Of a stretch of DNA of 35,749 bases, positions 1,946-33,823 are shown in pieces. The stretch's first letter is position 1. Every line of letters begins with the position of its first letter. A program made the position numbers and the translations under genes. The notes below the pieces were generated by a model. It made no database searches. It saw only the letters and a program-made list of their open reading frames with translations, and had not been told where the DNA came from. Source of the DNA: Planctomycetaceae bacterium (GTDB lineage Bacteria > Planctomycetota > Planctomycetia > Pirellulales > Pirellulaceae); contig PKCN01000319.1 of assembly GCA_002862205.1 (NCBI GenBank), forward strand, positions 1-35,749, in the 5' to 3' direction.

Positions 1946-2878
1946 ATGATTGAGACGCTATTGAATGGTTTGATTGCTGCAACCGTGACGCCACTTGATC
2001 GTGAAGGAGCGTGTGATTTATCGGCGATCAAGCCCATGATTGATCGCTTGATCGAATCTGGTGTGAGCGGTCTTTATGTTTGCGGCAGTACGGGTGAAGG
2101 AATGTCGTTGACCTGCCACGAACGTAAGAATGTTGTCGAGGCGAGTGTCGATGCCACGGCCGGCAGGGTGCCGGTCATTGTGCAAGTAGGCCATAACAGC
2201 ATCGCCGACGCGTGTGATCTGGCAAACCACGCGGCAGGTGCAGGAGCGAATGTGGTATCGGCTACCTGTCCATCCTATTTCAAAGTGGGAGACACCGAAA
2301 CTTTGTTGAAGTGCATGGGCAAGATCGCAAACGCTGCTCCGCAGCTGCCCTTCTACTATTATCATATTCCGGCGCTGACTGGTTCCCAGATAGATGTCGT
2401 TGATTTTCTCGAGCGCGGTGGCAGGAGTATTGCAAACCTCGCGGGGCTGAAATACACCAATACCCTGATCCATGAGTTTCAGGCTTGCCAGAATACACAA
2501 TCGCGAAATTTTGATGTGGTCTGGGGTTGTGATGAGATGTTGCTGGCGGCATTTGCCAGTGGAGCCACCGCTGCCATTGGAAGTACCTACAACATCGCGG
2601 CACCTTTGTACTGCCAGATCATCGAAGCGATTGAAGCTGGAGACTGGAAGACAGCACGTCAGTTGCAATACCACTCGGTGGAAATGGTGAATGTGATGAA
2701 GTCTTATGCCTTTCATGGGGCACTCAAGGCAATCATGTCAATGCTGGGAATGCCAGTGGGAAGCTGCCGACTGCCGTTGAATGAACTCTCGAAGGAAGAA
2801 ACGGAGAGTTTAAAAAGTGGACTCGAGCAGATTGGATTCTTTGAGTGGTGCGGTCATGAATCCCAGATAGGGAGTTAG
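1946..2878 (+). CDS. nanA: N-acetylneuraminate lyase (DapA/NanA superfamily)
   Basis: A 310-residue TIM-barrel class I aldolase of normal length for the family. It shows the carboxylate-binding GSTGE at 47-51, the catalytic tyrosine in YYYHIP (Y139), and the Schiff-base lysine in GLKYT (K169). The tyrosine and lysine contexts fit the sialate lyase branch better than dihydrodipicolinate synthase. The reaction splits N-acetylneuraminate into N-acetylmannosamine and pyruvate in the cytoplasm. ATG 1946 is preceded by GAGGAA at 1938-1943, which is closer to the start than usual. It begins an operon: the transporter gene starts 3 bases after its stop and an AGE epimerase follows. That context strongly favours sialic acid breakdown over another DapA-family role. 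Confidence 0.88.
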   Translation: MIETLLNGLIAATVTPLDREGACDLSAIKPMIDRLIESGVSGLYVCGSTGEGMSLTCHERKNVVEASVDATAGRVPVIVQVGHNSIADACDLANHAAGAGANVVSATCPSYFKVGDTETLLKCMGKIANAAPQLPFYYYHIPALTGSQIDVVDFLERGGRSIANLAGLKYTNTLIHEFQACQNTQSRNFDVVWGCDEMLLAAFASGATAAIGSTYNIAAPLYCQIIEAIEAGDWKTARQLQYHSVEMVNVMKSYAFHGALKAIMSMLGMPVGSCRLPLNELSKEETESLKSGLEQIGFFEWCGHESQIGS

Positions 2879-2881
2879 ACG

Positions 2882-5512
2882 ATGCGTGGACTGGTTTATT
2901 TTTGTGCAATGTTATTGGGCTGCCTGCTGGCAACGGATACCTGTCTTCATGCTCAGGAAACTGAGAACAGTCTGTTGACATGGAGTGACGAGATACCGCC
3001 ATTGCCGGATTCGATTGGCTTGGCAGGGCCGTTTGTTGGTGTGCATGGCGATGCCCTGATTGTCGCTGGCGGAGCCAACTTTCCGAGGCCGGTCTGGGAT
3101 AATGAAAAAGTCTGGCACGACGAAATCCACATTCTCCGTAAGAAAGATGGAGAGTACTCGTGGAAGCAGTCTGGTCGTCTGCCTCGACCACTGGCTTATG
3201 GTGCCGCCGTTTCTACCAAGGCAGGCGTGCTATGCATCGGAGGCAACGACAACAGTAGCACATTCAGTGAGGTCTTCTTGTTGCAAGCGGATGAAGAGAC
3301 TGGCGAAGTCAATATCGTTGACTACCCTGCTCTTCCAGACCCGTGTGCTTTCGGTGCTGCAGCTTTGATGGGAAATGCTGAAGATGGAGTGGTGTTCCTT
3401 GCCGGTGGGCAATCAGGTTCGTCGCTCGATACTGCAACGAATCAGATGTGGTCTCTGGATCTTTCCAAACGCGACGATACGGCAGCTTTTGTCTGGAAAA
3501 AAGAACCTGATCTGCCCGGGCCGACTCGAGCGCTCAATTTGACGCTCGCTCAGCATGATGGTTATGAAGATTCGCTTTATGTCATCAGTGGGCGGCGACA
3601 GAATGGAGAAGAAGTTGAATTTCTTACTGATGTGTGGCAGTACAAACCGAGTTCCAAAAGCTGGCGTCCCAGAGCAGAGGTGCCCAGATGCGTGATGGCC
3701 GGCACTGGCATCGGTTGGGGGCAAAGTCATCTGTTGGTTCTTGGAGGTGCGGATGGATCATTGTTTTTCAAGTCGGATGAGTTACGTGACAATCATCCCG
3801 GGTTTCCCAAAGAGGCCTGGGCTTACCACACGATTACCGATACGTGGGTTTCTGCCGGAAAAACACCTCAGAATCAGGTCACCACCATTGCTGTTCAATG
3901 GGACAATGCGATCGTTATTCCCAGCGGTGAAATCAGACCACGTGTGCGGACCCCGAATGTCTGGAAGGTGACCGTGAACCCAAAAGCGGATCAGTTCGGG
4001 GTCGTCAATAATGTGGTATTGATCGGGTATCTGCTGGGAATGGTGGCAATTGGTTTTTACTTTGCACGCCGGACAAAGAATACGGATGATTTTTTTCGAG
4101 GGGGAAAAAATGTTGCCTGGTGGGCTGCAGGATGCAGCATCTTTGCGACCATGCTCAGTTCTCTCACTTATACCGGTGTGCCGTCGAAATCGTACGCTCA
4201 GGACTGGGTGTATGCGGTCGGCAACTTCATGATCCCGTTGGTCGCCGTGATCGCGGTTTACGTTGCTTTGCCTTTTTATCGCGGCATTGATGCGACCAGT
4301 GCTTACGAATATCTGGAGAAGCGTTTCAATCGCGGTACACGATTATTCGGCAGTGCCAGCTTCACACTCTTTCATATCTTTCGGATGGCGGTGGTCATGT
4401 CGTTGACAGGAATGGCATTGGCGGTCGCCACTCCTTTGACACCCGCGCAGTCCGTTTTGGTCATGGGTTTCATGAGCATCCTGTACTGCACGATGGGCGG
4501 CATTGAGGCCGTGATTTGGACGGACACCGTGCAGACGGTCATCTTATTGGGCGGAGCCTTGATCGCTTTGATTTTGCTGTTTTCAGGCATTGATGGCGGA
4601 TGGCAGGGTTTTCTGGATCATTCTCAGGCGTCTGATAAATTCAAAATCACCAACCTGAATCTGGATGCCACCAGCGCTCAGATTGCACTGTGGGTCATTG
4701 TGGTTGGTGGCATCGCGCAGAATGTTTCTTCCTACACAGCCGACCAGGCGGTGGTACAGCGGTACATGACAACGGAAACGCGTCGTCTGGCGGCAAGGTC
4801 GATCTGGTTGAATTCAGGTTTGGCAATTGTGGCGACCTTTCTGTTCTTTGGACTCGGAACCGCTCTGCATGCTTACTATCACTCGAACCCCGAAAAGCTT
4901 GACCCGAATATCACAACCGATCAGATCTTCGCACTATTCATTGCACATGAAATGCCAATTGGTTTCGCGGGTCTGATTGTTGCTGGAATTTTTGCGGCAG
5001 CCCAATCGACGGTTTCGACCAGCATGAATTCCACGGCGACAACACTGGTGACTGATTTTATGAAACCACTCAATATTTGTCGTACCGATCGTGGATATTT
5101 GCGAGCAGCTCGGATCTTGACGCTGTTGATTGGTGTGTTGGGAACACTGATTGGTCTGCTATTCGTAAACCCGGATATCAAGTCACTCTTTGATGAATTT
5201 CTGAAGATCATTGGCCTGTTCATGGGAGTACTGGGCGGACTCTTTGTGCTGGGAGCCATGACGAAACGTGCCAACGGCACGGGAGCCTTGGCGGGCGCAG
5301 TCGTGGGTGCCATGACGATGTATCTGGTTTGGAAAGAGACGTCGATTAACGGTTATCTTTACACGGCAGTTGGGATCAGTGTCTGTTTTGTCGTTGGCTA
5401 TTTGGTCAGTCTGCTGCGACCAGCTTTGAGCGACGACGAGTTGGCAGGCTTGACTGTGTACACGATGGCGGGAAATGCTGAACCCGATGTTGCGAGCCGA
5501 TCATCAGCATGA
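2882..5512 (+). CDS. Kelch-type mutarotase fused to a sodium/solute symporter
   Basis: An 876-residue fusion. Residues 1-25 are a signal peptide ending near CLHAQ. Residues 30-368 form a Kelch beta-propeller resembling the cyclically permuted NanM-like mutarotases, with repeated GG-containing blades such as VAGGANF and VLGGADG. From about 372 to 860 it is a sodium:solute symporter (SSS family) with a dozen or so hydrophobic segments. It has the family segment [13 protein letters not shown] and a Ser/Thr-rich stretch [10 protein letters not shown] that fits the sodium site. The propeller would lie in the periplasm, converting the alpha anomer of sialic acid released by sialidases to the form that is imported. 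The gene starts 3 bases after nanA, and its stop overlaps the epimerase start as ATGA. The substrate is inferred from context. Confidence 0.87.
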
Positions 5513-6675
5513 CTTGGTTGACTCCCGAAGAACTGGTTGCGACATATCGCAATGGTTTGTTGGAAGATACCATGCCGTTTTGGCTGGATCATTGTGTGGA
5601 CCATCAGCATGGTGGTTTCACCATGGCGCTGGATCGCACAGGTCAGGTCGTGGATACGGACAAAGGCGTATGGCAGCAAGGTCGTTTTACCTGGCTTCTG
5701 GGTGAACTCTATAACAACCTGGAGGCCCGTGATGAGTGGCTGACTCTGGCCCGTCATGGGGCTGATTTTCTGCTGCAGCATTGCTTTGATGCCAGCGATG
5801 GACGTATGTGGTTTCATGTCACTCAGGATGGCAAACCCATTCGCAAACGTCGATATGCTTTTGGTGAAAGTTTTGCCGCCATCGCGTTTGCTGAACTCGC
5901 CAAGGCTACCGGCGAACCAGCTTACGCTGAGCATGCGGTCAAGACGTTTCATCAATTTGTCCAGCACAACCTCGATCCTGTCGACACACCCCCCAAATTT
6001 ACTGATCACCGGCAGACACGCTCCATTGGATTTCCGATGATTGCGATTGCTACCGCTCAGGAGTTGCGGGAATCCATCGACTTTGCTGACGCCAACCAGT
6101 GGATTGACAGGAGCATTGAGACGATTCAGCGGTTTCATCTCAAGCCTGAACTGAATTGTGTCATGGAAACGGTCGGTCAGCAGGGCGAAGTGATCGACCA
6201 CTTCGATGGACGGACACTCAACCCCGGGCATGCGATAGAAGGAGCCTGGTTTTTGATGCGCGAAGGAGCACATCGAAACGACTCCACGCTGATTGAGATG
6301 GGGTGCCAAATGCTGGATTGGATGTGGCAGCGCGGTTGGGACTCAGACTATGGTGGAATTCTTTATTTCACGGATTTGCATGGCCACGCGGTTCAGGAGT
6401 ATTGGCACGATATGAAGTTCTGGTGGCCACAATGCGAGGCCATCATTGCCACGCTGCTGGCATTCCGGCTGACAGGAAGGCAAAAATATGCCGATTGGCA
6501 CCAACAAATCCATCAATGGGCCTATCAGCATTTCCCCGATTCGGAGCATGGTGAGTGGTTTGGCTATCTGGACCGGACCGGCCGGGTCACCTCGACCTTG
6601 AAGGGAAACTTGTGGAAAGGACCCTTCCACCTACCGAGGATGCAACACATTTGCACTACAATTTTATCTCTGTGA
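5509..6675 (+). CDS. N-acylglucosamine 2-epimerase (AGE family)
   Basis: A 388-residue protein of the usual length for the AGE (alpha/alpha)6-barrel family. It converts N-acetylmannosamine, the nanA product, to N-acetylglucosamine. Recognisable family segments are the N-terminal [50 protein letters not shown] (with a candidate catalytic histidine), KFWWPQCEA, and the C-terminal [12 protein letters not shown] (with the second candidate histidine). The start overlaps the symporter stop by four bases (ATGA), which indicates translational coupling. It completes a path in which sialic acid enters amino-sugar metabolism at GlcNAc instead of through ManNAc kinase and NanE. No kinase or deaminase gene is in the window. 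Confidence 0.9.
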
Positions 6676-6676
6676 T

Positions 6677-6695
6677 CACCTTCAAGGGTGTTTTT
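6677..6695 (+). terminator. Weak hairpin and T-run after the nan operon
   Basis: CACCT, loop TCAA, GGGTG (one G-T pair) forms a 5-bp stem followed directly by TTTTT at 6691-6695. It starts two bases after the epimerase stop. The stem is short, so partial read-through into the downstream oxidoreductase is possible. Confidence 0.45.
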
Positions 6696-6848
6696 CCAAG
6701 TCGTAAATACCGATAAGATCGATGGCAATTTGCCAAAAACGGAGCTGAGCAGGCCCAATTTTTGACGCTTCCCGTCTACAATTCGGGTACCGCAAATGGA
6801 TTTCCCCTTCCACCCCTCTGTCTCTAACCTACCCATTCGAGGACATAA

Positions 6849-8159
6849 ATGACGCAAAACGATTCCAACCGTCGAACGTTTCTGAAGACTTCAACGGCGG
6901 CAGCAACCGGTGCTGCGTTGACCAGCACCATCGCCAAGACCGCTCACGCGGCCGGTAGTGATACAATTCGCTTTGTGCTGATTGGTTGTGGTGGTCGTGG
7001 CGGTGGTGCTGCCGCTCAGATCATGAATACCAAAGGAAATGTCAAGCTGGTCGCAGTAGCCGATCCATTTGAGGAGAATGCCAAGAGCAAATTGGCGAGG
7101 TGGAGTAAAGGAGATACCAAGGACAAAGTTGACGTTCCTGAAGAGCGTATCTTTGGCGGGTTGGACGGATACAAAAAAGCAATCGATACCGATTGTGATT
7201 TGGTCATCATTGCGACCCCTCCAGGCTACAAGCCGCAACAGTTTGAGTATGCGGTCAGCAAAGGTCGCCACGTATTCATGGAAAAGCCTGTCGCAGCGGA
7301 TGCTGTTGGAGTACGTCGTGTCTTGGACGCAGTCGAAGAATCCAAGAAGAAAAAATTGATGGTGGGCATTGGATTGCAACGCCGACACGAGCCACGTTAC
7401 ATGGAGACGATTGATCGTATTCATGATGGCGCTATCGGTGATATCATTGCTCAGCGGGTGTACTGGAATGGTGGTGGAATCTGGTATCGCAACCGGAAGG
7501 CCGACATGAGCGAGATGCAGTTCCAAACCAATAATTGGTACCACTTCAACTGGCTGTCTGGTGACCAGATCTGCGAACAGCACATCCACAATCTGGATGT
7601 CGGTTGCTGGGTCAAAGGCGAGTACCCCGTCGAGTGCAATGGCATGGGTGGTCGCGGGATGCGAATGGACGGTGATGCGTCGAAATCCCAGATTTTCGAT
7701 CATACCTTCTGTGAGTACACTTTCTCCGATGGAACCAAGATGTTCAGTCAGGGCCGGCATTTGCGTGGCGCTTGGAACAAGGTTGGAGAAGCAGTTCATG
7801 GTACCAAAGGTACTGCTGACCCCTCCGGTTCGATTGCCGGTGAATCCAATTGGAAATTCTCCGGGAAAAGCCCAAATGGTCACCAGCAAGAGCAACATGA
7901 TCTCATAGAAGCGCTGATGCGAGGCGAGATCTACAACGAGGGTGAGTATGGTGCCAAGTCGACCTTCACCGCCATTCTTGGCCGTGAAGCCTGCTACAGC
8001 GGTAAGGTTCTGAAGTGGGACGACCTGTTGGCACGTGGTCGCGAATTGGCACCAGGGATCGATAACTACACGATCGATACACCACCACCAACGCTTCCCG
8101 ATGAAAACGGTTTGTATCCCGTGCCTGTACCAGGCAAATACGATCCATTCGCTTCCTGA
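6849..8159 (+). CDS. Tat-exported Gfo/Idh/MocA-family oxidoreductase
   Basis: A 436-residue NAD(P)-dependent oxidoreductase. Residues 1-34 are a twin-arginine signal: NRRTFLK at 7-13, a small-residue hydrophobic stretch, and a likely cut near AHA. The Rossmann loop is IGCGGRGGG at 45-53, and the family EKP motif is at 145-147. Folded export with bound cofactor is typical of the many planctomycete members of this family. ATG 6849 has GAGG at 6839-6842, six bases away. The substrate cannot be read from sequence. Known family members include NanOx/YjhC, which acts on 2,7-anhydro-N-acetylneuraminate, so a sialic-acid role fits its place behind the nan genes. The weak hairpin in the 173-base gap and the periplasmic location leave other sugars possible. 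Confidence 0.88.
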   Translation: MTQNDSNRRTFLKTSTAAATGAALTSTIAKTAHAAGSDTIRFVLIGCGGRGGGAAAQIMNTKGNVKLVAVADPFEENAKSKLARWSKGDTKDKVDVPEERIFGGLDGYKKAIDTDCDLVIIATPPGYKPQQFEYAVSKGRHVFMEKPVAADAVGVRRVLDAVEESKKKKLMVGIGLQRRHEPRYMETIDRIHDGAIGDIIAQRVYWNGGGIWYRNRKADMSEMQFQTNNWYHFNWLSGDQICEQHIHNLDVGCWVKGEYPVECNGMGGRGMRMDGDASKSQIFDHTFCEYTFSDGTKMFSQGRHLRGAWNKVGEAVHGTKGTADPSGSIAGESNWKFSGKSPNGHQQEQHDLIEALMRGEIYNEGEYGAKSTFTAILGREACYSGKVLKWDDLLARGRELAPGIDNYTIDTPPPTLPDENGLYPVPVPGKYDPFAS

Positions 8160-8187
8160 TTCAAGAATTCAGAAGCCTGGAGAAATC

Positions 8188-8230
8188 AACGTCTCTGGAT
8201 TGGCTCATGTCCGATCCAGAGGCGTTTTTT
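8188..8230 (+). terminator. Strong intrinsic terminator between convergent genes
   Basis: The core stem CTCTGGAT (8193-8200) pairs perfectly with ATCCAGAG (8214-8221) across a 13-base loop. Further pairs outside it, including one G-T, give about 13 bp in all. TTTTTT follows at 8225-8230. It ends the plus-strand oxidoreductase transcript. Its T-run shares bases with the stop codon of the convergent exporter gene. Confidence 0.88.
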
Positions 8231-11200
8231 ATTGACTGCGCTTGATTTGGCGAGGTGGGTCTTTGCGAGGAAAGTGCAAACGCAGATGCGGCACCGCTTC
8301 GTCATCCGCTTCGTCATCGCTGGCTGCCGGAGCACTGCTGGCTGCCGGAGCACTGCTGGCTGCCGGAGCAATGCTGGGTGATGTTTCGACGGAAACGGGG
8401 ACCCTCACATTCATGTCATCTGAAGTAACCGGTGTGGATGTGTCATCCATCCCGAGGTGATCTGGTTTCACGGGCCGGTTTTCGCGCGGCTTGAAGAAGC
8501 GACCGGCGGGACCGGCCAGTAAAGCTGGCAGCAGAATCAGGTCACCCGCTAAGGCAGCTACGAGCATCACCAGCATCAATGTGCCAAATCGTTGGGTAGG
8601 TGTGAAGGTCGACAAAGCAAACACAAACAGCCCCAGACCACCGACGATGGTGGTCTGCGTCATGGCAGGACCAACACGACGATAAGACTGAATTACCGCT
8701 TCAACGCGGGTCATGCCTTCATCCAGATGCGCACGGAACCACGACAGGAAGTGAATCGTGTCGTCCACTGCCACTCCCATGGCAACAGAGGCTGTCATCA
8801 TGGTTCCGATGTCAATTTCGATATTCAAATGACACATCACCCCAAACACAACCAAGACAGGAAAGACATTGGGGATCATCGACACAAGACCAGCTGCCAC
8901 ACCATTTGCGAGGTTGCCCGGTTTCATCCATCCCAGCGGCATGCGACCTGGATTGAGAAGCCAGACCATGACCAGCGCGATCAGGACAAATGCCATCGCA
9001 ATTGAATGCGTCAAGCTGGTCAACAGCGTTCGCTGCGCTTTGTAGACCACGGGAACAACACCCGTGTAAATCACTTGGATTGGTCCACTGCCATCAACAT
9101 CAGGTACCCGATCAGCGGTAAGTTGCGGCGATACTTTTTTATCGCGAATGATGGTTGCGTCAATCAGATTGGGCGAAGAATTGAAGTCATCGATTGTGAA
9201 GACATCACTCCCCAGCCAGACAATGGCATCGAACCTCTCCAGTGACTCCTGCCACTTGGGATTGGAGGTCATTGCCTCGGCCTTTTCCGGCGACACGTCA
9301 ATCCATCGTGGGGATTCAATCCGCTCACCACTGAGTAACTCAGCAAGTGTGGCAGCGTAGGTTGCTTTTTGGTTAATCTCACCATCAGGTAAAATCAAAT
9401 CAGCGGACTCGAGTGTCTTGGGGCTTTCGCGGCTCACCACCAGAACTTGTGACTTTGTATCAAGCTTCGTCGGGTTGCCATTGTCATCCGTGGTCAGCGA
9501 GCCAAGGATTTTGTCACGTGTGTCATAGGCCCGTAAAACTGGTTCAACAGATTCCCTGAGAGTGGAGATGAATCGACCATAGTCAACATCGGAGAGTGCG
9601 GCGACCCGAAGGCTGATTCTCCACAATTCGTTATCGAGGGCCCCTGCCGATTTTTCCAGTCGCAGGTAGTCGTTTTCTTGTAGATCCTCGCGACCTGCCA
9701 GAATCTCACGATTGAACTTTGCCCTGATCGGACTGTAACTGTTGCTTGGTTCGGGTAGCGGTGGCAGAACCGTGTCAGCGCTCATGACCTGCCCGACGAC
9801 ACCACGACCAGGCTCACCAAGGATTCGATTGACAACGGTCCGAATCCGCGAAATGGCTTCGACCCGCTCCAGCATGGTGAGCGCTTGGATGGAGGGTTTA
9901 TCATCGGCTGATGCCATACCGTCGCTGATGTTTTCATCTGCATCCGCCAGATATTCTGCTTGCATTTCCGGTGGGACGCGAACAATCAACTCCATGGGAA
10001 CCAATTTCCCGAAGTTGTCTTCGAGCCAGCCATAGTCATGAATGATCCGCGAATCGGGATCAAACAACTTCAGTAACTGGACTGAGGTTTTGATATTCAG
10101 AAGTCCGAGTGAGCAGACTGCCAGCATCAATAAACAGGTACTGCTGACAATCGCATGGTGTCCTGTAATCCAGCGGCCCACCGCAGCCCACCAATCTGAC
10201 AAGCGACTCTCGGGTGCCGGTTGTTGCGTGGTTGAATCGATTTCGGATTCAGAGAACTTGGGAGCAAAAACCTGTAGGGCGGCAGGCAGATAGGAGAACA
10301 GGATAGCGAGCGTCATCAGAACGCCAATGGCTGAATAGAAGCCAAAATTGCTGATTGGAGCCAGATTGCTGGTGAACAGCGAGGCGAGACCAATTGCGGT
10401 CGTCAAAGAAGCCAGCGAGCAAGGCAGAATGGCGTGTCGCAAAGCACGTCCGGGCGCTCCTGCCTTTCCGCGAATCCGTACCTCGTCGCGGTAGTAGTTG
10501 ACAACGTGTATCGCTCCCGAGATCCCAAGTACATAAACCAGCGATGGCATGCTCAGTAGAATCGCATCGACTTTACCTGACGTCCACCAGACCATTGCCA
10601 TGCTAAGCATGGCTGAGCAACCGCCAACGACGAATACCATCACGGTGATCTTGATACTGCCAAAACAGATATAAGACAGAATGATCCCCAGCACAATGCT
10701 GTAGCCAACCAATCGAGCCAGCGTGACGGTTCCCTCTTCGTCAATGGCAGTATTGTCGACAGGGGGACCACCGATGCGAAGCGGCGGTAAGCCATCCACC
10801 GATTCGGCGGGCCGACGATTGAACGGGGGTGGCGCCATGGACGGCGGAGCAGCCGGTTGAACACCGGACTCGGCGGCCAAAGTCAATAGGCGTCCTCGAG
10901 GCTGCCCCATGATTCCCCGGCCCAATGCATAGGCGAGATTGTCTTTTGCCAGGTCAGTCAGAGTAATGAGGACGCACGTCAATCTTGGTGGTGGTTCCAC
11001 TTCCATCGCGTCGTAGACCGCATACCACACGTTGGTGCGATCATTCAGGAATGCTTGTTTGAGCTGATCAAGCGAGGAATCATATTCATCCGCCAGAATT
11101 TCTGTGAGGTGGAAATCGACTTGTGCGTCAAAGTCCTCGGGCAACTGGTCACGGCTGCTCTCCGGCAGTGCATCACGGAACGCTGCGGCAGTCCATTCGA

Positions 11201-24706: not shown

Positions 24707-26293
24707 ATGAATTACAAGGCACACCTGTGGTGCTGCCAAATCTCGAACAGAACAGAAGATTCCGTGTTTGAAGAAAAGCTCGAACCGCTTCTTGGGTCTT
24801 CCGCTGATCCAGTAGCCGCCGGATGGCAATTGCGACAGTTGGCTGAATCCGTTGAGGGTCAGGGAGCCCTGCTGGTTGAAGAGATTGCCAGTCAGTCCGA
24901 TCTGTTATCAGCATCAGATCCAGCCATCCTTGGCGGGATCTTGCGTGTGGTACATACCGTTGTCCTTCAGGCTGGCCCGGAAGTTGTATCCAAATTGGAC
25001 CCAAGCCACCTGCAGAGGATCATGGAGGTTTTGCCCTCCAAGACGACCAACCGTTTTCTGATCCTGCAACTTCTGGCATTGATTCGCAGCGAAGATGCAC
25101 TTGGAAAATTGGTTTTTCTGTTGGAAGAGGTACCGCCCAAGCAGTGGATGGAAGCGGCGCAGGTATTGAGTCCTCTGATGCAGCACTCCGATTGGTCAAT
25201 TGATGCGGTGTATCCGGCGTTGTTGGATTCACTTCAACATGCGGCCTTGGCATCACCGGTTCTGGATCTTGCGAATTATCTGTTTCGAGAGGGCCGCACT
25301 GAAACTCATCCAGCGAGTGAGCGTTTGCCGATGTTGAATCATCTGTTGGGCGAAGTCAGTGGCCGATTGAGTTTGTTCGAGGAAAATCCACGCTCGTTCG
25401 GTGACGACGTCGAGACTGTTCAAGCCACGTTGGGTGAGGCTGTCGCTTTGGCGGTATCACTTTGTGATACTGTTGGGTTGATCGGTGACGAGGCATCCAT
25501 AGGAAAATTGAACCAGACCATCGAGCTTCGACATCGACGAGTTCAATGTGAAGCAGCGGGTGCACTTGCCAAGCTGGGGGATGATGATGGAAAAAAAAGA
25601 TTGTTGGCTTTGACTGAGGATCCGGCAGCTCGACTGCGAGCGATTCACTACGCAGATGAAATTGGGATAGGCGATCAGGTCAAGGAGGATGATCGTGGAG
25701 AGAAAGCGACGGCTGAGGCAGAGATGGCTTTATGGCTTACCCAGCCACAGCAAATGGGAGTTCCGCCAACTTCGGTGGAAGTCATTGATCAACGACGTTT
25801 GTTATGGCCAAGTTACAACGATCCGATTGATGTTTGTCTGGTGCGTTTTGAGTACAACATGGGCGAGCGGACCTACAGCAATGTTGGAATGACAGGGCCG
25901 GTTTGTTTTGCCATGGCCACGGATGTAGCGAACCTTCCCGTCGACGATATCTACTCAATTTATGCGGGCTGGCATGCTGAGCATGATGAGATTTTTACAA
26001 TTGCTGCGGACCAGTTCAACGATGCCCAGCAACGAGCGATGGAGACATTCTCGAAACATTTGGAGCATCTCGGCTACCGATCCATCAAGCCCGTGATGCT
26101 GGGGATTTTTCTGGATGAGCAGGCAGGTGTCTTCAATGCCTTGCGGGAAACCACCGAATGTGTCGTGATCACTGATAATCTCGAAACCATTGATCGTCCA
26201 ATTTCTGGGCGTTTAAGACCACTTTCGGCTGACGATTTGTTTAATCTGTACAAAGGCAGAAAAATGTTGCGAACCTTCAATTCGCAATCCTGA
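24707..26293 (+). CDS. HEAT-repeat-like protein upstream of the FtsK/EssC-like gene
   Basis: A 528-residue protein without signal peptide or membrane helix. Residues 20-340 are alpha-helical repeats of HEAT/ARM type; the clearest copy is VQCEAAGALAKLGDDDGKKRLLALTEDPAARLRAIHYA. From about 360 to 525 there is a separate mixed alpha/beta domain starting near DVCLVRFEYNMGERTYSNVGMTGP that I do not recognise. HEAT folds are usually scaffolds for protein-protein contact. It stops 24 bases before the small helical gene, with the ATPase gene close behind. All three are probably one transcript, which suggests an adaptor or coupling role in the same machine. A GTG at 24764 is a possible later start. 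Confidence 0.6.
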   Translation: MNYKAHLWCCQISNRTEDSVFEEKLEPLLGSSADPVAAGWQLRQLAESVEGQGALLVEEIASQSDLLSASDPAILGGILRVVHTVVLQAGPEVVSKLDPSHLQRIMEVLPSKTTNRFLILQLLALIRSEDALGKLVFLLEEVPPKQWMEAAQVLSPLMQHSDWSIDAVYPALLDSLQHAALASPVLDLANYLFREGRTETHPASERLPMLNHLLGEVSGRLSLFEENPRSFGDDVETVQATLGEAVALAVSLCDTVGLIGDEASIGKLNQTIELRHRRVQCEAAGALAKLGDDDGKKRLLALTEDPAARLRAIHYADEIGIGDQVKEDDRGEKATAEAEMALWLTQPQQMGVPPTSVEVIDQRRLLWPSYNDPIDVCLVRFEYNMGERTYSNVGMTGPVCFAMATDVANLPVDDIYSIYAGWHAEHDEIFTIAADQFNDAQQRAMETFSKHLEHLGYRSIKPVMLGIFLDEQAGVFNALRETTECVVITDNLETIDRPISGRLRPLSADDLFNLYKGRKMLRTFNSQS

Positions 26294-26305
26294 TATCCCC
26301 CAAAA

Positions 26306-26312
26306 GGGAGGG
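26306..26312 (+). promoter_or_regulatory. Strong Shine-Dalgarno site before the 85-residue protein
   Basis: GGGAGGG lies 5 bases before ATG 26318. It is the best ribosome site in this gene cluster; the next gene, the ATPase, has none visible. This predicts much higher production of the small protein than of the ATPase. Confidence 0.65.
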
Positions 26313-26317
26313 CTTGT

Positions 26318-26575
26318 ATGGCATTCCAACTCGGACGAATTACTGACTGTGAAGGTCGAATTCAGCGGGATTTTACGGAGTTTGCGAGACTCTGGGCCAA
26401 GGTACGGGAGGATTGGTTGGATGATCGGTGTCGGAAGTTTGAGCAGGAGAATCTTTCTTCCTTGGGCCCCAGTTTGAGCCGATTCACAGGAACACTTCAT
26501 GAATTCTGTGATTCGGTCAGGAAGGCAGATATTGAGCTGAAAGACGATCATGCGCTTTCGGACGGGTTAGACTAG
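26318..26575 (+). CDS. Small helical protein with W-x-D motif, WXG100-like
   Basis: An 85-residue acidic protein without signal peptide. It reads as two amphipathic helices joined near residues 32-36. The turn carries W33-L-D35-D, then F41, and then a regular ladder of hydrophobic residues L46, L49, L53, F56, L60, F63, V67. The sequence ends in KADIE and an acidic tail. WXG100 (ESAT-6-like) proteins have this size, hairpin shape and a tryptophan at the turn, but with glycine two residues later where aspartate stands here. They are exported by EssC/EccC ATPases, and an ATPase of that layout is the next gene. A WXG100-like substrate or structural partner is therefore plausible but is inference. 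It could instead be a cytoplasmic regulator of the ATPase. Confidence 0.7.
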   Translation: MAFQLGRITDCEGRIQRDFTEFARLWAKVREDWLDDRCRKFEQENLSSLGPSLSRFTGTLHEFCDSVRKADIELKDDHALSDGLD

Positions 26576-26591
26576 AGAAGGTTGCTTCTCT
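26574..26591 (+). other. Hairpin between the small gene and the ATPase gene
   Basis: AGAGAAG, loop GTTG, CTTCTCT forms a perfect 7-bp stem. It begins inside the TAG stop of the small gene and lies 23 bases before the ATPase ATG. A pyrimidine-rich stretch follows but no T-run, so it is not a standard terminator. It could protect the 3' end of a short, abundant mRNA or reduce read-through. Confidence 0.6.
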
Positions 26592-26613
26592 CCTCTCTCC
26601 CCCTATCGCAATC

Positions 26614-29600
26614 ATGAAAGACAATTCTGTCAGTCCGACTGGGCTTCTTGCGACAACGCGTCAACGTCAGCTTCTGGACGGTTTGTCGAAGCGATTCCAG
26701 ACTTGCTCCTCACGGCAGTCAGATTTGCTGAAACTGCACCATGAACAGGAGATGGAAGAGGAACGAGGTTACGCACTCAGTCATGCTGAAACCATGCAAC
26801 AGTGTCGTGCTACGCGTCGCAAAATGCTTGCCATGTGGGATGAAGCAGACGAAACGCTGGCAAGAACTTATGAAGAGACTGCGATTCGTAATCGGCTTGA
26901 TCTCAGTCGTCTCGAGCAGCTATTCAAAAAAAAGGCAATGGAGGAGCAGTCGGTAATTGAACGAAAGGTTCACTCACGATGTCAGGCAGTCAAAGAGCAA
27001 TATGAAAACCGTAAAAATCAACCCGGCCAGCAACAACGCAAGGAAGTCAAGTTGATTGATGAGGCTTTGTTGCCTTTAGCCAAGCAGATTGAAGAGGTGA
27101 ATTATCTCACCATTCGTCGTCTCGACATGCTCCCCGAGACAGAGCCCGACGAGAAGCAATTGAAGGAATTGAGTGAGGCCAAGCCAGAAACGATAAAAGC
27201 GACAATTGAGTCGCTGAGTCGTTTGACCAAAAAATGTGAAACACAAAAGATCGAACTTCAGTCCGGTACGGCTTCCAAAATTGTGGACTCGTTCTACTTG
27301 CCAGCTGCTGTCGCCGTATTTCTGGTGATTTGGGCGATCGCCGCTCTGATCGTTGTTCCTGAAACGTCAGCCAGATGGCTTTGGGCGGCGGGTGGGCTTG
27401 TTCCTGCGTTTGTACTCGGGTTCGCCGCGTATCTTATCCTTTTGTGGCCACTCAAACGCATGACGCGTCGTATCTATCCAAGAGTGGTGATGCTCGGACA
27501 TCTTGCAGACGAGTTTGCAGCAAATGCGCGCAGCCTTGCGAAGAAAATCTCAGAAGCTTCATCCACGGAACTGGTGGAACGACGGGATACACATCTCGCT
27601 GCCGCTGAGCGTTGGCAGAAAGACCAGATGGTAGCCATGCAGCAAAGACTTGCTGCGGAGCAGGAAACACAACGAGTGCGGTTGTCGGAATCGTTGAAAA
27701 ATGTGGATATAGAGTACGAGACCAATGCAACTCGTATTGGTACCCAGATGCATACCAAAGCAGATATGGTTGCGAATGCGATTTCCACGGAATTGATGGA
27801 AGCTGATCTGGCGATTGAGGTTCAGCGTGATGATCAATCAGCCCGACGCAAAGTCGAAGTTGGTCATTTGATCGACCGTTTGAATGAGGGTGTGAAACGT
27901 GGACTGCAAAGAATTGACTCCGCAGATCAAGAGATGGAGGCCAGGTTCCCCGCTTGGACTGATTTGTCCGATGATGGAGACCTACCAACCAGGCAGATCG
28001 ATTATTTGCCATTGGGATTTTTGAAAGTCGCCGACAGTTTGCGTCAGGTTTTGGAACAACCTTCCCAATCAGATTCTAGCAGTGCCCAGAGCAACGGCTC
28101 TGTTGGTGAAGCCGATGTTGCTACGGCGGGCGAAGAAGTTGCAAAGTTGCTGGATGAAGTACAACTTCCAGCCAATCTGCCAGTGGTGTTACATCGCCGT
28201 CTTCATAGTGGGCTGATGATCGAGTGCTCAGAGGCGCACATGGAACAGGCCATTGACCTGGTGCATCAGGTGCTGTGGCGGTTGTTAACGTCCGCTCCTG
28301 CGGGTCGTGCAAAATTGACAATGATTGATCCTTTGGGCAGGGGACAGCACTTCACCAGTTTCATGGCTTTGGCGGATCATGATCCCACTCTTGTCGGGCA
28401 TCGTGTCTGGACGACCGATGCAAAGATTGAGAGTCGACTGGGTGAGCTTGCTGATCATGTTGAAGATGTGTTGCAAGCCAGTTTACGCGACCGTTTTGAA
28501 AGAATAGAAGATTACAATGAGGTTGCCGCTTCGATGGCCGAACCCTACCGAGTTGTTGCTGCGGTCGGGTTCCCGGACGCACTTTCGCGGGACAGTTATC
28601 GACATCTGTTGGCGCTTCTGGAAAGTGGCTTGCGATGTGGTGTGTTTACCATCCTTGTTTGTGATCGCGAAAAGCCGTGGCCACCTGAAACTCCCTTGCC
28701 CGATAGTGACAAAATACTGTCGCTCAACATTGATGACCAAGGTGAGTGGCACCTGAAATCAGACGGTATGGAAAATTTGCCATTTGTACCGGCTACGGCA
28801 CCTCCTGCCCAAATCCGTAAAGAACTGGTGCAGCACGTTGGCGCCGCTGCAGTGGCGGCTGCCAAGGTTGAAATCCCGCTAGGAAATGTACTGACTGATT
28901 TTGAACCTGCTGCCGGCTTGACGGGCACTGGGATCGAATTGCCCATCGGCAGTCAGGGCGCGAATCGATCGCTATGCATTGATCTTGGAAAAGGTGTTCA
29001 GCAGCACGTTCTGATCGCCGGAAAGACTGGTTCAGGCAAGAGTACGCTGTTGCATTCGATCATCATGTCGGGTGCTTACCGCTATCGGCCCGATCAATTG
29101 CAATTCTATCTTTTGGATTTCAAAAAGGGTGTCGAGTTCAAACCTTATGCAGAGCATGGGCTGCCACATGCGAGGGTTGTTGGAATCGAAAGTGAACGTG
29201 AGTTTGGTCGTAGCGTTTTGCAACGTCTGGATGAAGAGTTACAGCACCGTGGTGAACTATTCAGGGCAGCAGGGGTGCAGGAAGTGGGAGAGTACTTGAC
29301 GGCGACCGGAAAGCAGATGCCACGCATCATGTTGGTTGTTGACGAATTTCAGGAATTGTTCGTCCGTGACGATCGTCTTGCTGGCGATTGTACAATGCTA
29401 CTTGATCGGCTTGTCAGACAAGGTCGTTCCTTTGGCATGCATGTGGTGCTCAGCAGTCAGTCACTGGCCGGTGCCTACTCTCTTCCAAGGGCCACGTTAG
29501 GGCAGATGGCAGTTCGTATTGCGATGCAGTGTAGTGAATCCGATGCGGCGATGATTCTTGCCGATGACAATACAGCTGCCCGTTTGATCAGTCGCCCGGG

Positions 29601-30564
29601 TGAAGCCATTTACAACGACGCGGGAGGTCTTGTTGAGGGCAATCAACCGTTCCAGGTAGCTTGGCTGTCTTCGGCAGAACATCGTGACATGCTGACGTCG
29701 ATTACAGATCGTGACGAAAATTATCGGAAAGATTTGCCGCCGATGGTGGTGTTTGAAGGCAATCGACCCTGCCGTTGGTCGACGGCCATGGCGGATTCAG
29801 TCCTGGACGCCGAACAGAACAATCTGCTTTGTGGTCTGCTCGGTGAATCGGTTGAGATTGGACCCCCGCAACGTGTCAAGTTGGGTCGCGATCCTGGACG
29901 TAATATTCTTATGATCGCCGGATCAGACTCGCGAAATGCACTTCTGGCTTCCAGTCTTTCCGGGATAGCAAAGTCTGATCCCCGTTTGGAGGTTGTCTAT
30001 TTCGATGGCACGCGCGCAGATGATGGCGGTTCAGCTGCGTCATGGCTTGAACAAGCAGGCGTTCGTACCAGACTGGTAAAAATACGCGATGCAGATGGTG
30101 AGATCAGCCGTCTCAATGATTTGATACAAGAGCGTGGGTGCGAAACGAATGATTCCCCCCCGATCATTCTGGTCATCGATCCGTTGGAACGATTCAGAGA
30201 TTTGAGACAGGATGATTCGTTCAATTTCTCGCTGGATGCAGGATCAGGACCAGCATCAGGGGGCGCTGCGCTGCAAACGGTGCTCAGAGATGGGCCAGCA
30301 GCAAACGTGTTTGTCGTGCTGATTGCTGGATCTGCTGAAACGGTAACACGCTGGTTACCCAGAGCTTCGCAGCATGATTTGGAAATTCGCATCCTTGGGC
30401 AGATGAATCAATCCGACTCGGCACTGCTCATCGATTCTCCGGTCGCTGCGGAACTGTCAGCAGCAACGATGCTTGTCTACGACGATGCAGATGGAGGCAT
30501 TGCCAAATTCAGACAGTGTGATTTACCGGACGCTGATCAGGTCAAAGACTGGTTGGCGAGTTAG
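26614..30564 (+). CDS. FtsK/SpoIIIE-family ATPase with EssC/EccC-like layout
   Basis: A 1316-residue membrane ATPase. Residues 35-220 are charged coiled coil, 227-250 and 256-278 are two membrane helices, and 300-440 is a second coiled coil. Three ATPase-like modules follow. The first (about 520-780) lacks a Walker A but has LTMIDPLGRG near 568-577. The second is intact, with Walker A GKTGSGKST at 803-811 (K809) and Walker B VVDEFQEL with D910 and E911. The third (about 1090-1310) is degenerate, with GSDSRNA at 1103-1109 in place of a Walker A, and LVIDP with D1189. One active and two worn-out modules after a membrane pair resembles EccC/EssC of type VII secretion, whereas FtsK proper has one motor and a gamma domain. 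The FHA domains of EssC are absent and long coiled coils stand instead. A DNA translocase remains the alternative. Confidence 0.82.
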   Translation: MKDNSVSPTGLLATTRQRQLLDGLSKRFQTCSSRQSDLLKLHHEQEMEEERGYALSHAETMQQCRATRRKMLAMWDEADETLARTYEETAIRNRLDLSRLEQLFKKKAMEEQSVIERKVHSRCQAVKEQYENRKNQPGQQQRKEVKLIDEALLPLAKQIEEVNYLTIRRLDMLPETEPDEKQLKELSEAKPETIKATIESLSRLTKKCETQKIELQSGTASKIVDSFYLPAAVAVFLVIWAIAALIVVPETSARWLWAAGGLVPAFVLGFAAYLILLWPLKRMTRRIYPRVVMLGHLADEFAANARSLAKKISEASSTELVERRDTHLAAAERWQKDQMVAMQQRLAAEQETQRVRLSESLKNVDIEYETNATRIGTQMHTKADMVANAISTELMEADLAIEVQRDDQSARRKVEVGHLIDRLNEGVKRGLQRIDSADQEMEARFPAWTDLSDDGDLPTRQIDYLPLGFLKVADSLRQVLEQPSQSDSSSAQSNGSVGEADVATAGEEVAKLLDEVQLPANLPVVLHRRLHSGLMIECSEAHMEQAIDLVHQVLWRLLTSAPAGRAKLTMIDPLGRGQHFTSFMALADHDPTLVGHRVWTTDAKIESRLGELADHVEDVLQASLRDRFERIEDYNEVAASMAEPYRVVAAVGFPDALSRDSYRHLLALLESGLRCGVFTILVCDREKPWPPETPLPDSDKILSLNIDDQGEWHLKSDGMENLPFVPATAPPAQIRKELVQHVGAAAVAAAKVEIPLGNVLTDFEPAAGLTGTGIELPIGSQGANRSLCIDLGKGVQQHVLIAGKTGSGKSTLLHSIIMSGAYRYRPDQLQFYLLDFKKGVEFKPYAEHGLPHARVVGIESEREFGRSVLQRLDEELQHRGELFRAAGVQEVGEYLTATGKQMPRIMLVVDEFQELFVRDDRLAGDCTMLLDRLVRQGRSFGMHVVLSSQSLAGAYSLPRATLGQMAVRIAMQCSESDAAMILADDNTAARLISRPGEAIYNDAGGLVEGNQPFQVAWLSSAEHRDMLTSITDRDENYRKDLPPMVVFEGNRPCRWSTAMADSVLDAEQNNLLCGLLGESVEIGPPQRVKLGRDPGRNILMIAGSDSRNALLASSLSGIAKSDPRLEVVYFDGTRADDGGSAASWLEQAGVRTRLVKIRDADGEISRLNDLIQERGCETNDSPPIILVIDPLERFRDLRQDDSFNFSLDAGSGPASGGAALQTVLRDGPAANVFVVLIAGSAETVTRWLPRASQHDLEIRILGQMNQSDSALLIDSPVAAELSAATMLVYDDADGGIAKFRQCDLPDADQVKDWLAS

Positions 30565-31206: not shown

Positions 31207-32511
31207 TCAGGAGATGGATTTGGCCAGTCGCAGGCCAGTGAATTGCCAGCGGGCATCAGCAGGGAAAAAGTTCCGATAGCTCTTCCGCAGGTGTTCTCGA
31301 GGCGTTGCGCAAGATCCACCGCGAAGAACATATTGGTTACACATGAACTTGCCGTTGTACTCACCAAGTGCACCGTCTGCGGCTTGGTATCCAGGGTAAG
31401 CCGAGTAAGAACTGCAGGTCCACTGCCAGCAGTCGCCGAACAGCCCGTAGAAAGGTCCATTGGCAGCACCATGGCAGGGATGCACTGCCTGGTGGGAATC
31501 ATGGTGGTCTTCCGCGAAACAGCCTTTGATCGGGTAGTTACTGGCTACCGCTTCCCATTCAGTTTCCGTTGGCAGCCTTGCGTTTGCCCAGCGAGCGTAG
31601 GCATCAGCCTCAAAAAAGCTGATATGCGTGACAGGGGCGGACAGGTCGAGTGCTTGCAGACCGCCCAGCGTGAACTCACATGGCTCATCGTTTTGATAGA
31701 ACCAATACAGCGGTGAGTTCCATTGGTGGCGGTTGATATGGTTCCAGCCCAGAGACAGCCACAATTCGGACCGCTGGTAGCCATGATCATGAACGAAATC
31801 CAGATACTCTCCGTTCGTGACAAGTTGATCACGCAACGCGTAGGGTTCGAGGAAGACACGATGTCTTGGTGACTCATTATCAAAGGCGAATCCCTCGCCA
31901 TTGTGTCCTATACAATGGACTCCTTCTTCGTAGTCGACCCACTGCCTTTCTGACGGTAGGTCGCTGGTGGCCGGTTTGCATAGGGACAACGAGGGAAACA
32001 TCGGATTCTGTGCGAACAGATGTTTGATATCGGTTTGCATCAATTCCTGGTGTTGTTGCTCGTGGTTCAGCCCCAGTTCGACGATATCCAAAATCTCTTC
32101 GCTGCCAGGGGCCACTTGCTGTAGGGTTTCGAGCATCATCTCATCGACACTCTTCCGATAACAATTGATTTCCTCAACGGTCGGGCGTGTCAGTAATCCC
32201 CGCTGCTCACGTGGGAACTGCTCACCTACCGAGTTGTAGTACGAATTGAACAGATACTCGAAAGCATCATTGAATTTTCGATACCCGGGATTTCGAGTGA
32301 GGATGAAGGTCTCGAAGAACCAGGTTGTGTGCGCCAGATGCCAACGCATTGGACTGGCATCAGGCATCGACTGACCGATGTAATCTTCTACACACAGCGT
32401 TTCGCACAGTTTCGCGGAGAACGCCCGGACTGCGCGATAACGATCCAGCAAATGGTATTTTCGAAGATCGAGTTGTGGTTCAACTTCCAGAGCAGCGGTG
32501 GACGTGTTCAT
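31207..32511 (-). CDS. egtB: Ergothioneine sulfoxide synthase EgtB
   Basis: A 434-residue protein of normal EgtB length. The N-terminal DinB-like domain carries the iron ligands: HLAH (58-61) and HEQQHQE (150-156), giving the three-histidine site. The C-terminal formylglycine-generating-enzyme-like domain (about 180-434) has WNHINRHQWNSPLYW, RLPTETEWE and LRGGSCATPREHLRKSYRNFF. The enzyme uses oxygen and iron to form a C-S bond between trimethylhistidine (hercynine) and a cysteine-type thiol donor, on the way to ergothioneine. No egtA or egtC is present, so the donor may be cysteine itself. The lyase EgtE must be encoded elsewhere. Its start overlaps the stop of the small DUF427 gene as ATGA. 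Confidence 0.95.
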   Translation of the reverse strand: MNTSTAALEVEPQLDLRKYHLLDRYRAVRAFSAKLCETLCVEDYIGQSMPDASPMRWHLAHTTWFFETFILTRNPGYRKFNDAFEYLFNSYYNSVGEQFPREQRGLLTRPTVEEINCYRKSVDEMMLETLQQVAPGSEEILDIVELGLNHEQQHQELMQTDIKHLFAQNPMFPSLSLCKPATSDLPSERQWVDYEEGVHCIGHNGEGFAFDNESPRHRVFLEPYALRDQLVTNGEYLDFVHDHGYQRSELWLSLGWNHINRHQWNSPLYWFYQNDEPCEFTLGGLQALDLSAPVTHISFFEADAYARWANARLPTETEWEAVASNYPIKGCFAEDHHDSHQAVHPCHGAANGPFYGLFGDCWQWTCSSYSAYPGYQAADGALGEYNGKFMCNQYVLRGGSCATPREHLRKSYRNFFPADARWQFTGLRLAKSIS

Positions 32512-32792
32512 GGTTGAACCTCAACCCCTTTCCAGAAGGCTACATAGTCGCGAACGTTGGCGACAGCATCCTTGGGTGCAGGGTAATACCATGCGGCATT
32601 CACATTCGTATTATCTTCCACCACAACATCGTAATAACTGGCGGTACCTTTCCATCCACACACGGTATGGTGCTCACTTTCGCGGAAGTACTGCCGATGA
32701 ATCGAAGTGGGTGGGAAATAGTGATTTCCTTCAATGATCTCAGTCGCATCACTTTCAGCAATGATGACGCCATTCCAGAGTGCTTTTGGCAT
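32508..32792 (-). CDS. Short DUF427 protein between egtD and egtB
   Basis: A 94-residue single-domain DUF427 protein. Recognisable segments are AIW-type start ALWNGVIIAES, GNHYFPP, CGWKGTASYYDV and AAWYYPAPKDAV. It lies 59 bases after egtD and overlaps the egtB start by four bases (ATGA), so its translation is coupled to egtB. The location suggests a function tied to ergothioneine synthesis or use, but no biochemical role can be read from the sequence. It has no signal peptide or membrane segment. Confidence 0.87.
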   Translation of the reverse strand: MPKALWNGVIIAESDATEIIEGNHYFPPTSIHRQYFRESEHHTVCGWKGTASYYDVVVEDNTNVNAAWYYPAPKDAVANVRDYVAFWKGVEVQP

Positions 32793-32851
32793 GTTGTATG
32801 AACAACTTCAGGTTGGGGGCAGGAAACGTTCGAGGCTGATTTTTCTTTGGA

Positions 32852-33823
32852 CTATGCTTCGAGGTACATCACAGCAAAGTATCTTTTCGGATCGAGCCAG
32901 AGGGCCCGGCAAGACCATCCAGCTTCATCAGCCATCGTTGAGAATCCCTCGACAGTATATTTGTGCGAGTATTCTGTGAGGATTTCATCCGATTCATTGA
33001 TTTGGAAAAATTGATCGTCGATTCGGATGGACTGTTTGCAGCGACTGCGTAACCTCATTTCGATTCGGCCCGCCTGTTCGTTGAAGATCGCTTTGTGTTC
33101 AAAATTTGCAACGTTGACTTGCGCGTCAAGTTCCCGATTGATTCTGGACAGCAAGTTGAGATTGAACTGTGCGGTGATTCCCTTGCGGTCGTTGTAAGCT
33201 GCTTCCAGAACGTCTTTTTGTTTAAGTAAATCGAATCCAATCAATAAGCTCCCCCGCTGACCCGCTGTATCCCGCATGGCTTGGAGCAATTCACTGGCTT
33301 CTTCGTGCGTGAAATTTCCAATGGTCGAGCCCGGGAAATAAATGCACGTGTTCATGTCTGGCGAAGATGCTTCCGGCAAGTCGAGTGGCTTGGTGAAATC
33401 GCCGACAATTGGCCTGATTGCATGTTGCGGGTACTCCGCCGCCAACTCTCTGGCAGCAGCATGAAGATGCTCTTTCGAAATGTCGATCGGCAAATAGGTG
33501 TCAAGGTTGTTGAGTTGGTCCAACAGGATGCGTGTTTTGAGACTGCTTCCGCTGCCGTATTCGACTAACCTCGCATTGTCACCGATGCAGGCCGCCATCA
33601 TCGGCGCGTGGCGTCGCATGATCGCGGCCTCGGTACGGGTCGGGTAATACTCCTGCAACTCGCAGATCTGGTCGAACAGAGCCGAGCCGCGTTGGTCGTA
33701 GAAATATTTGGAAGGGATGGCCTGTGTGGGAGCATTCAATCCAGTGAGCAGATCGTAACGGAACTGTTTGGCGGCTTCGGAGAGAGGTTTTTGTCCCGAC
33801 GGGGACACGAGAGTCGAGGGCAT
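32852..33823 (-). CDS. egtD: L-histidine N-alpha-methyltransferase EgtD
   Basis: A 323-residue SAM-dependent methyltransferase of standard EgtD length. It shows KYFYDQRGSALFDQI followed by YYPTRTE in the N-terminal histidine-binding part, SAM motif EYGSGSS (88-94), LPIDIS (111-116), and FPGSTIGNF (about 163-171). It adds three methyl groups to the alpha-amino group of histidine to give hercynine, the substrate of EgtB. It is the first gene of a minus-strand operon with two DUF427 genes and egtB. The 178 bases between it and the next upstream-lying gene, the response regulator, should carry its promoter, but I see no clear boxes. Confidence 0.96.
   Translation of the reverse strand: MPSTLVSPSGQKPLSEAAKQFRYDLLTGLNAPTQAIPSKYFYDQRGSALFDQICELQEYYPTRTEAAIMRRHAPMMAACIGDNARLVEYGSGSSLKTRILLDQLNNLDTYLPIDISKEHLHAAARELAAEYPQHAIRPIVGDFTKPLDLPEASSPDMNTCIYFPGSTIGNFTHEEASELLQAMRDTAGQRGSLLIGFDLLKQKDVLEAAYNDRKGITAQFNLNLLSRINRELDAQVNVANFEHKAIFNEQAGRIEMRLRSRCKQSIRIDDQFFQINESDEILTEYSHKYTVEGFSTMADEAGWSCRALWLDPKRYFAVMYLEA

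Follow-up and report, generated by a model that had tools for sequence, protein, structure and literature searches.

The DNA analysed here (the window, 35,749 nucleotides, which is one contig, C51, of a 7.77 Mb planctomycete genome) appears to hold one half of a type VII-like export system of a diderm bacterium, a reading based on sequence comparisons to which we assign a probability of roughly 0.6. The system is split over two loci in this genome: the window carries the genes for an EccC/EssC-like membrane ATPase and for a small WXG100-like protein (B), and the genes for a further WXG100 protein (A) and for a protein that we call mid are located elsewhere. We conclude that the type VII-like system is real and conserved and belongs to a kind already in print, with B and mid as new components.

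Three open reading frames follow one another on the plus strand at positions 24707-26293 (528 aa), 26318-26575 (85 aa) and 26614-30564 (1316 aa), separated by gaps of 24 nt and then 38 nt, which confirms the three close same-strand genes reported in the first-pass annotation of this DNA. A scan for viral contigs found nothing, and a promoter and terminator scan was uninformative. The features are:

24707..26293, plus strand: HEAT-like protein, 528 aa (P0001); weak HEAT_2 match; homologue in 76 of 99 relatives regardless of the ATPase
26318..26575, plus strand: WXG100-like protein B, 85 aa (P0002), predicted helical hairpin whose bend contains W-x-D (AF2 model, 44-member alignment, profile match to EsxA)
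26414..26422, plus strand: W33-L34-D35, bend motif of B (alignment and model)
26614..30564, plus strand: EccC/EssC-like membrane ATPase, 1316 aa (P0003) (sequence searches, model, structure comparison)
27301..27357, plus strand: first transmembrane helix, residues 230-248 (hydropathy)
27397..27453, plus strand: second transmembrane helix, residues 262-280 (hydropathy)
28168..28863, plus strand: module 1, degenerate FtsK-type, approximately residues 519-750, no Walker A; family motif IDPxGxGQxF (alignment, model)
28921..29643, plus strand: module 2, intact ATPase module, approximately residues 770-1010 (PF01580, 6e-30; model)
29020..29046, plus strand: Walker A GKTGSGKST, residues 803-811, in the middle module; the only Walker A in 62 of 62 members of the ATPase family
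29341..29346, plus strand: Walker B acidic pair DE, residues 910-911 (family alignment)
29746..30561, plus strand: module 3, degenerate, approximately residues 1045-1316

The predicted model of P0003 contains three FtsK-like modules. Together with the hydropathy profile and the motif scan, it bears out the earlier description of a membrane ATPase with two adjacent transmembrane helices and three modules, of which the middle one alone has intact Walker motifs. A weaker hydrophobic stretch at residues 665-683 falls within module 1 and was not counted as a transmembrane helix; the same scan over the 62 family members gave two stretches in 44, three in 11, one in six and none in one. By sequence and by its multi-module arrangement, the ATPase is nearest to EccC/EssC. 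By sequence, module 2 best matched the first ATPase module of the 4nh0 chain, and structural alignment placed the three modules of P0003 along residues 454-1315 of the 4nh0 protein, that is, along all three of its modules. P0003 scored well under the NCBIfam equivalog cut-offs (112 versus 509 bits) and is thus not EccC or EssC proper. The first-pass annotation had proposed a structural comparison with EccC/EssC and FtsK, and the outcome depended on the level of comparison: the multi-module arrangement was closest to EccC/EssC, but the fold of the single middle domain scored at least equally well against FtsK, and VIA-align placed FtsK motor domains first.

The middle module shares its motor fold with FtsK/SpoIIIE, and PADLOC matched P0003 to SspH (88 bits), mad8 (72 bits) and HerA. 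Both results would fit a motor of the FtsK/HerA/SspH kind that translocates DNA or acts in DNA defence, with the hairpin proteins as its regulators or coiled-coil partners. We nevertheless regard such a motor as quite unlikely. The strong PADLOC matches span only the shared motor domain, and EccC/EssC is favoured by far in sequence. No C-terminal FtsK gamma domain, a DNA-binding domain that the first-pass annotation had named as evidence against its own reading, was found among the Pfam matches of P0003 at E≤1. Unlike FtsK/SpoIIIE, P0003 has three tandem modules and WXG100 partners, one of them a canonical WXG100 protein that accompanies it constantly, and the genome has its own FtsK gene elsewhere (G000:C224).

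This constant partner is protein A. In the genome of the window, A (positions 8962-9231) and mid (8465-8956) lie side by side on the minus strand of another contig (G000:C1, locus L101), behind a TPR-like gene. A is a protein of 89-90 aa that in this genome passes the Pfam cut-off for WXG100 (PF06013; 43.3 versus 27.3 bits) and stays below that of NCBIfam (37.1 versus 44.85 bits). W43 and D45 were invariant in 42 of 42 sequences. In the PDB the A family best matched HP0062 of H. pylori (4e-13; PDB 3fx7, 2gts), its closest solved relative, followed by EsxB (7e-8), streptococcal homologues and EsxA. HP0062 is described as having WRD in its bend and as clustering with an FtsK/SpoIIIE gene (PMC3397514). 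On these sequence matches, A is classified as a canonical WXG100 protein (PF06013).

The presence of A follows that of the ATPase closely. Among 99 relatives, 68 had both, two the ATPase only, one A only and 28 neither (Fisher p 3e-21). The three exceptions can be ascribed to incomplete or truncated assemblies: completeness is 72% and 73% for the two genomes with the ATPase only (G055 and G095), and G012, the genome with A only, has B as well as the beginning of the ATPase gene, at the end of a contig. mid was found in 70 of the 99 relatives with one match each (E≤1e-6); these are the ATPase genomes, except that mid was present in G012 and not found in G095. In a sample of 294 genomes of the phylum, 39 had A and 40 the ATPase, and all 39 genomes with A also had the ATPase. 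In 39 of the 68 genomes with both, no more than 3 kb separates A from the ATPase; in the other 29, which include all 21 counted in the genus of the window, A lies apart or on another contig (25 on different contigs, where fragmented assemblies may hide some linkage, and four far apart on the same contig). That the two are present together even though their genes are apart is a strong sign of joint function. Within the genus of the window the ATPase was found in 21 of 22 genomes, and the 22nd has the start of its gene at a contig end.

For protein B, the AF2 model (pLDDT 89) predicts a helical hairpin with helices at residues 5-30, 36-46 and 49-82 and a bend at 31-35 that contains W33-L34-D35. 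W33 and D35 are the sole invariant columns of the 44-member alignment, so the 85-residue hairpin with a tryptophan at its turn, until then a candidate, has gained support from both model and alignment. The B profile matched EsxA in the PDB at 3.8e-4, in a table whose top row, a viral fusion coiled coil, we took as noise. PF06013 was the commonest Pfam match of the B family (10 of 44 members at E≤1, best 8e-4); P0002 itself had no Pfam match. Alignment of the B and A profiles by hhalign gave a probability of 52%, and the structure search was led by EsxA and HP0062, all matches being at E≥0.6. The WXG100 superfamily is marked by a hairpin of about 100 residues, a conserved tryptophan in the bend and homology. 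Counting each of these as present in B, on predicted structure and profile matches, we classify B as a putative distant and diverged WXG100 relative.

The first-pass annotation had made its reading depend on a conserved linkage of the small gene with the ATPase, and such linkage was found. We fetched 80 ATPase loci, some of them from genomes that had also supplied profiles, and set aside 19 whose sequence upstream of the ATPase was shorter than 1.7 kb. In the remaining 61 named loci, B was present in 55, which indicates linkage beyond chance. A, mid and B occurred together in 43 of these loci, mid and B in two, HEAT and B in six, B alone in four, and none of A, mid and B in six. The gene order in most other sampled lineages is A-mid-B-ATPase.

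The HEAT gene behaved differently. P0001, first described as a helical-repeat protein, is only weakly HEAT-like (PF13646, E 4e-5, under the Pfam cut-off), and its membership of the group did not hold. A homologue was found in 56 of the 70 genomes with the ATPase and in 20 of the 29 without it, leaving 14 with the ATPase only and nine with neither (Fisher p 0.30); this table scores G012 as ATPase-negative despite the gene start visible at its contig end. In the genus of the window and in G034 and G058, HEAT is the neighbour of B and the ATPase; in the other HEAT-bearing genomes it is located elsewhere. Since its presence is independent of the ATPase and its location mostly a different one, we judge the HEAT gene to be a neighbour in the genus of the window and rule it out as a component of the system. 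A match of the mid profile to the HEAT protein was an artefact of a HEAT fragment (L012) in the mid alignment and was gone once L012 had been removed.

These data also bear on whether HEAT, B and the ATPase could form a self-contained trio in which HEAT stands in for the missing parts. Despite the adjacency of the three genes in the genus of the window, G034 and G058, we consider this highly improbable, given the independent occurrence of HEAT and the existence of A and mid elsewhere in the same genome. The suggestion that the HEAT protein replaces other membrane parts is therefore abandoned. The type VII-like interpretation itself was right in kind, with an EccC/EssC-like ATPase and a WXG100 partner, but it had included HEAT and missed A and mid.

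The mid protein is predicted from its sequence to be mostly helical, and we found no convincing family for it. Sequence matches in the PDB were at E 0.03 and worse and appear to be due to chance, and hhalign gave no convincing homology to A (33% over 34 columns) or to B (1%). We scanned nine proteins, namely eight long mids and the tail of the mid counterpart in locus L088, for C-terminal domains. An Imm33-like domain was above the Pfam cut-off in four of the long mids (L143, L179, L199 and L200), below it in L174 and a weak match in L191. Imm33 is counted among the immunity domains found in polymorphic toxin systems (PMC3482391). The mid homologue of L147 has a hydrophobic helix followed by a tail with E...D...ExK, by eye a pattern of restriction-endonuclease-fold nucleases. 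Locus L088 represents a divergent second system in genome G042, flanked by von Willebrand-type genes, in which a 436-aa protein at the position of mid has a similar nuclease-like pattern by eye; it resembles mid weakly, and its status as a counterpart rests mostly on position. Searched against the PDB by sequence, one of these two tails gave no match and the other four matches at E≥0.15; the L147 tail had no database match in the domain scan or the PDB search. In most mids (104 profile matches, by eye) the tails were short or low in complexity. The loci labelled Chloroflexota (L147, L158 and L185) may be mis-binned contigs.

Imm33-like and nuclease-like tails would be expected if mid were a carrier whose C-terminal domains can be exchanged. 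We tentatively propose that mid is such an exported carrier, whose helical targeting domain might dock together with A and B on the ATPase and whose C-terminus might serve as a variable cargo slot, occupied by nothing, by an Imm33-like domain or by a nuclease-like domain. In bacteria that have an outer membrane, it would then play a part analogous to that of LXG effectors.

Other parts of known type VII systems were searched for in 40 genomes. YukC/EssB was found in none of them and YukD in three, with positive controls in both cases, and neither was found in the genome of the window (G000). The EccB search was also negative in all 40, but no control genome was positive either. The YxxxD/E signal, known from mycobacterial substrates and above all a feature of T7SSa substrates (PMC3935865), was looked for in the last 40 residues and occurred in 0 of 42 A, one of 44 B and two of 31 mid sequences. 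The pattern HxxxD/ExxhxxxH, taken from the same source, occurred in B (14 of 44 versus 12.9 in shuffled sequences) and mid (16 of 31 versus 16.8) about as often as chance would give, and in A (22 of 42 versus 13.3) modestly more often. Inspection of the gene-order listing by eye found no membrane, periplasmic or outer-membrane gene that recurs beside the set across families; flanking genes were common to loci within the genus of the window. Nor did we find a large family of WXG100-domain effectors: of the 69 positive genomes, 66 had a single PF06013 match and three had two, and mid had a single match in each of its 70 genomes. As YukC and YukD were not found in this genome, A lacks YxxxD/E and no flanking gene was seen to recur across families, export is a function that we infer.

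The same observations would suit a complex that descends from a type VII system but has lost export: anchored in the membrane, the ATPase assembly would serve in remodelling or as a scaffold with a role in the envelope, and would have A, B and mid as fixed subunits. Mostly single-copy parts, no cargo family, no YxxxD/E signal and no recurring envelope-spanning neighbours all agree with it. We consider it unlikely, since mid has differing C-terminal domains in some lineages, which would be expected if it were an exported carrier, and since the sporadic distribution in the phylum (39 of 294 genomes) is unlike that of a housekeeping envelope function.

If the system exports, as we favour, the ATPase would form a ring anchored in the inner membrane by its pair of transmembrane helices, with its coiled coils in the cytoplasm. 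Together, A, B and mid would build helical-bundle complexes through which mid, with anything joined to its C-terminus, reaches the ATPase. Powered by hydrolysis in its middle module, the ATPase would then move A, B and mid across the inner membrane, and modules 1 and 3 may have binding or regulatory functions.

With the T7SSa and T7SSb systems (EccC/EssC with EsxA/EsxB) the present system shares a membrane ATPase of the EccC/EssC kind and a constant WXG100 partner. Unlike them, it has a coiled-coil-like N-terminal region with no FHA domain detected, a single intact module beside two degenerate ones, W-x-D instead of W-x-G, no YxxxD/E in A, and no YukC or YukD found in this genome, and it belongs to a diderm phylum. 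A closer precedent is footnote 6 to Table 1 in Zhang et al. 2012 (PMC3482391), which mentions planctomycete 'solo WXG' proteins with a distinct YueA-like ATPase that has three HerA/FtsK domains, the middle one alone active. Planctomycete hosts, a three-module ATPase with only the middle module intact and a WXG partner are common to both, and we take the present system to be the one in that footnote. In contrast to the footnote's 'solo', B and mid are further partners here. The footnote's 'mobile' does not suit the genus of the window, throughout which the ATPase is kept; across the phylum its presence is patchy.

In the surveys cited here, WXG100 proteins are nearly confined to two phyla, with a few from Chloroflexi (PMC3935865), T7SS subtypes are described in two phyla, Bacillota and Actinomycetota (PMC11217815), and ESX is left out as absent from diderm-LPS bacteria (PMC4793230). 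The first of these used the pattern W-x-G, which A and B would escape because of their W-x-D motif. A search of literature titles for WXG100 proteins or type VII secretion in planctomycetes found none, and we found no description of B, mid, the four-gene set or its split in the genus of the window in the portions of the literature available to us. B and mid are two newly named components of a WXG100-ATPase set. Present in 70 of 99 relatives and more sparsely in the phylum (40 of 294 genomes), this set offers a testable case for the role of WXG100 proteins in a cell with two membranes.

Next to the WXG100 protein A lies a TPR-like gene; among the loci compared, 16 show a similar one. Just downstream of the window's ATPase is a pair of genes that we take to be of the ergothioneine type (EgtB/EgtD). 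A second, divergent copy of the type VII-like system was found in genome G042; its ATPase is shorter (1059 aa), its 436-aa protein combines a coiled coil with a nuclease-like tail, and von Willebrand-type or -like genes stand at both ends (two in all).

L101, 9273-10253: the TPR-like gene, which lies immediately upstream of A
Window, 31207-33823, minus strand: FGE-sulfatase/DinB protein and histidine-specific methyltransferase, adjacent (Pfam)
L088 (G042:C3), 4102-10659: von Willebrand-type gene, WXG100 protein, 436-aa protein, small gene, ATPase, von Willebrand-like gene

ORFs that match only part of the ATPase were also seen. Downstream of an intact ATPase copy in L052 (G037:C180), a separate 516-aa ORF (2532-4082) is similar only to the C-terminal half of the ATPase. 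A 347-aa ORF in L092 (G032:C1, 8961-10004) matches only residues 57-389, the coiled-coil and transmembrane part; neither A nor the middle protein was found in G032, and the ORF is either a relic or a chance coiled-coil match.

The middle protein of L147 (716-1897), on a contig labelled as a Thermoflexales MAG, has a hydrophobic helix and a C-terminal nuclease-like domain. Because the L147 ATPase is about 55% identical to planctomycete ATPases over some 870 residues, transfer of the system or mis-binning of the contig is possible.
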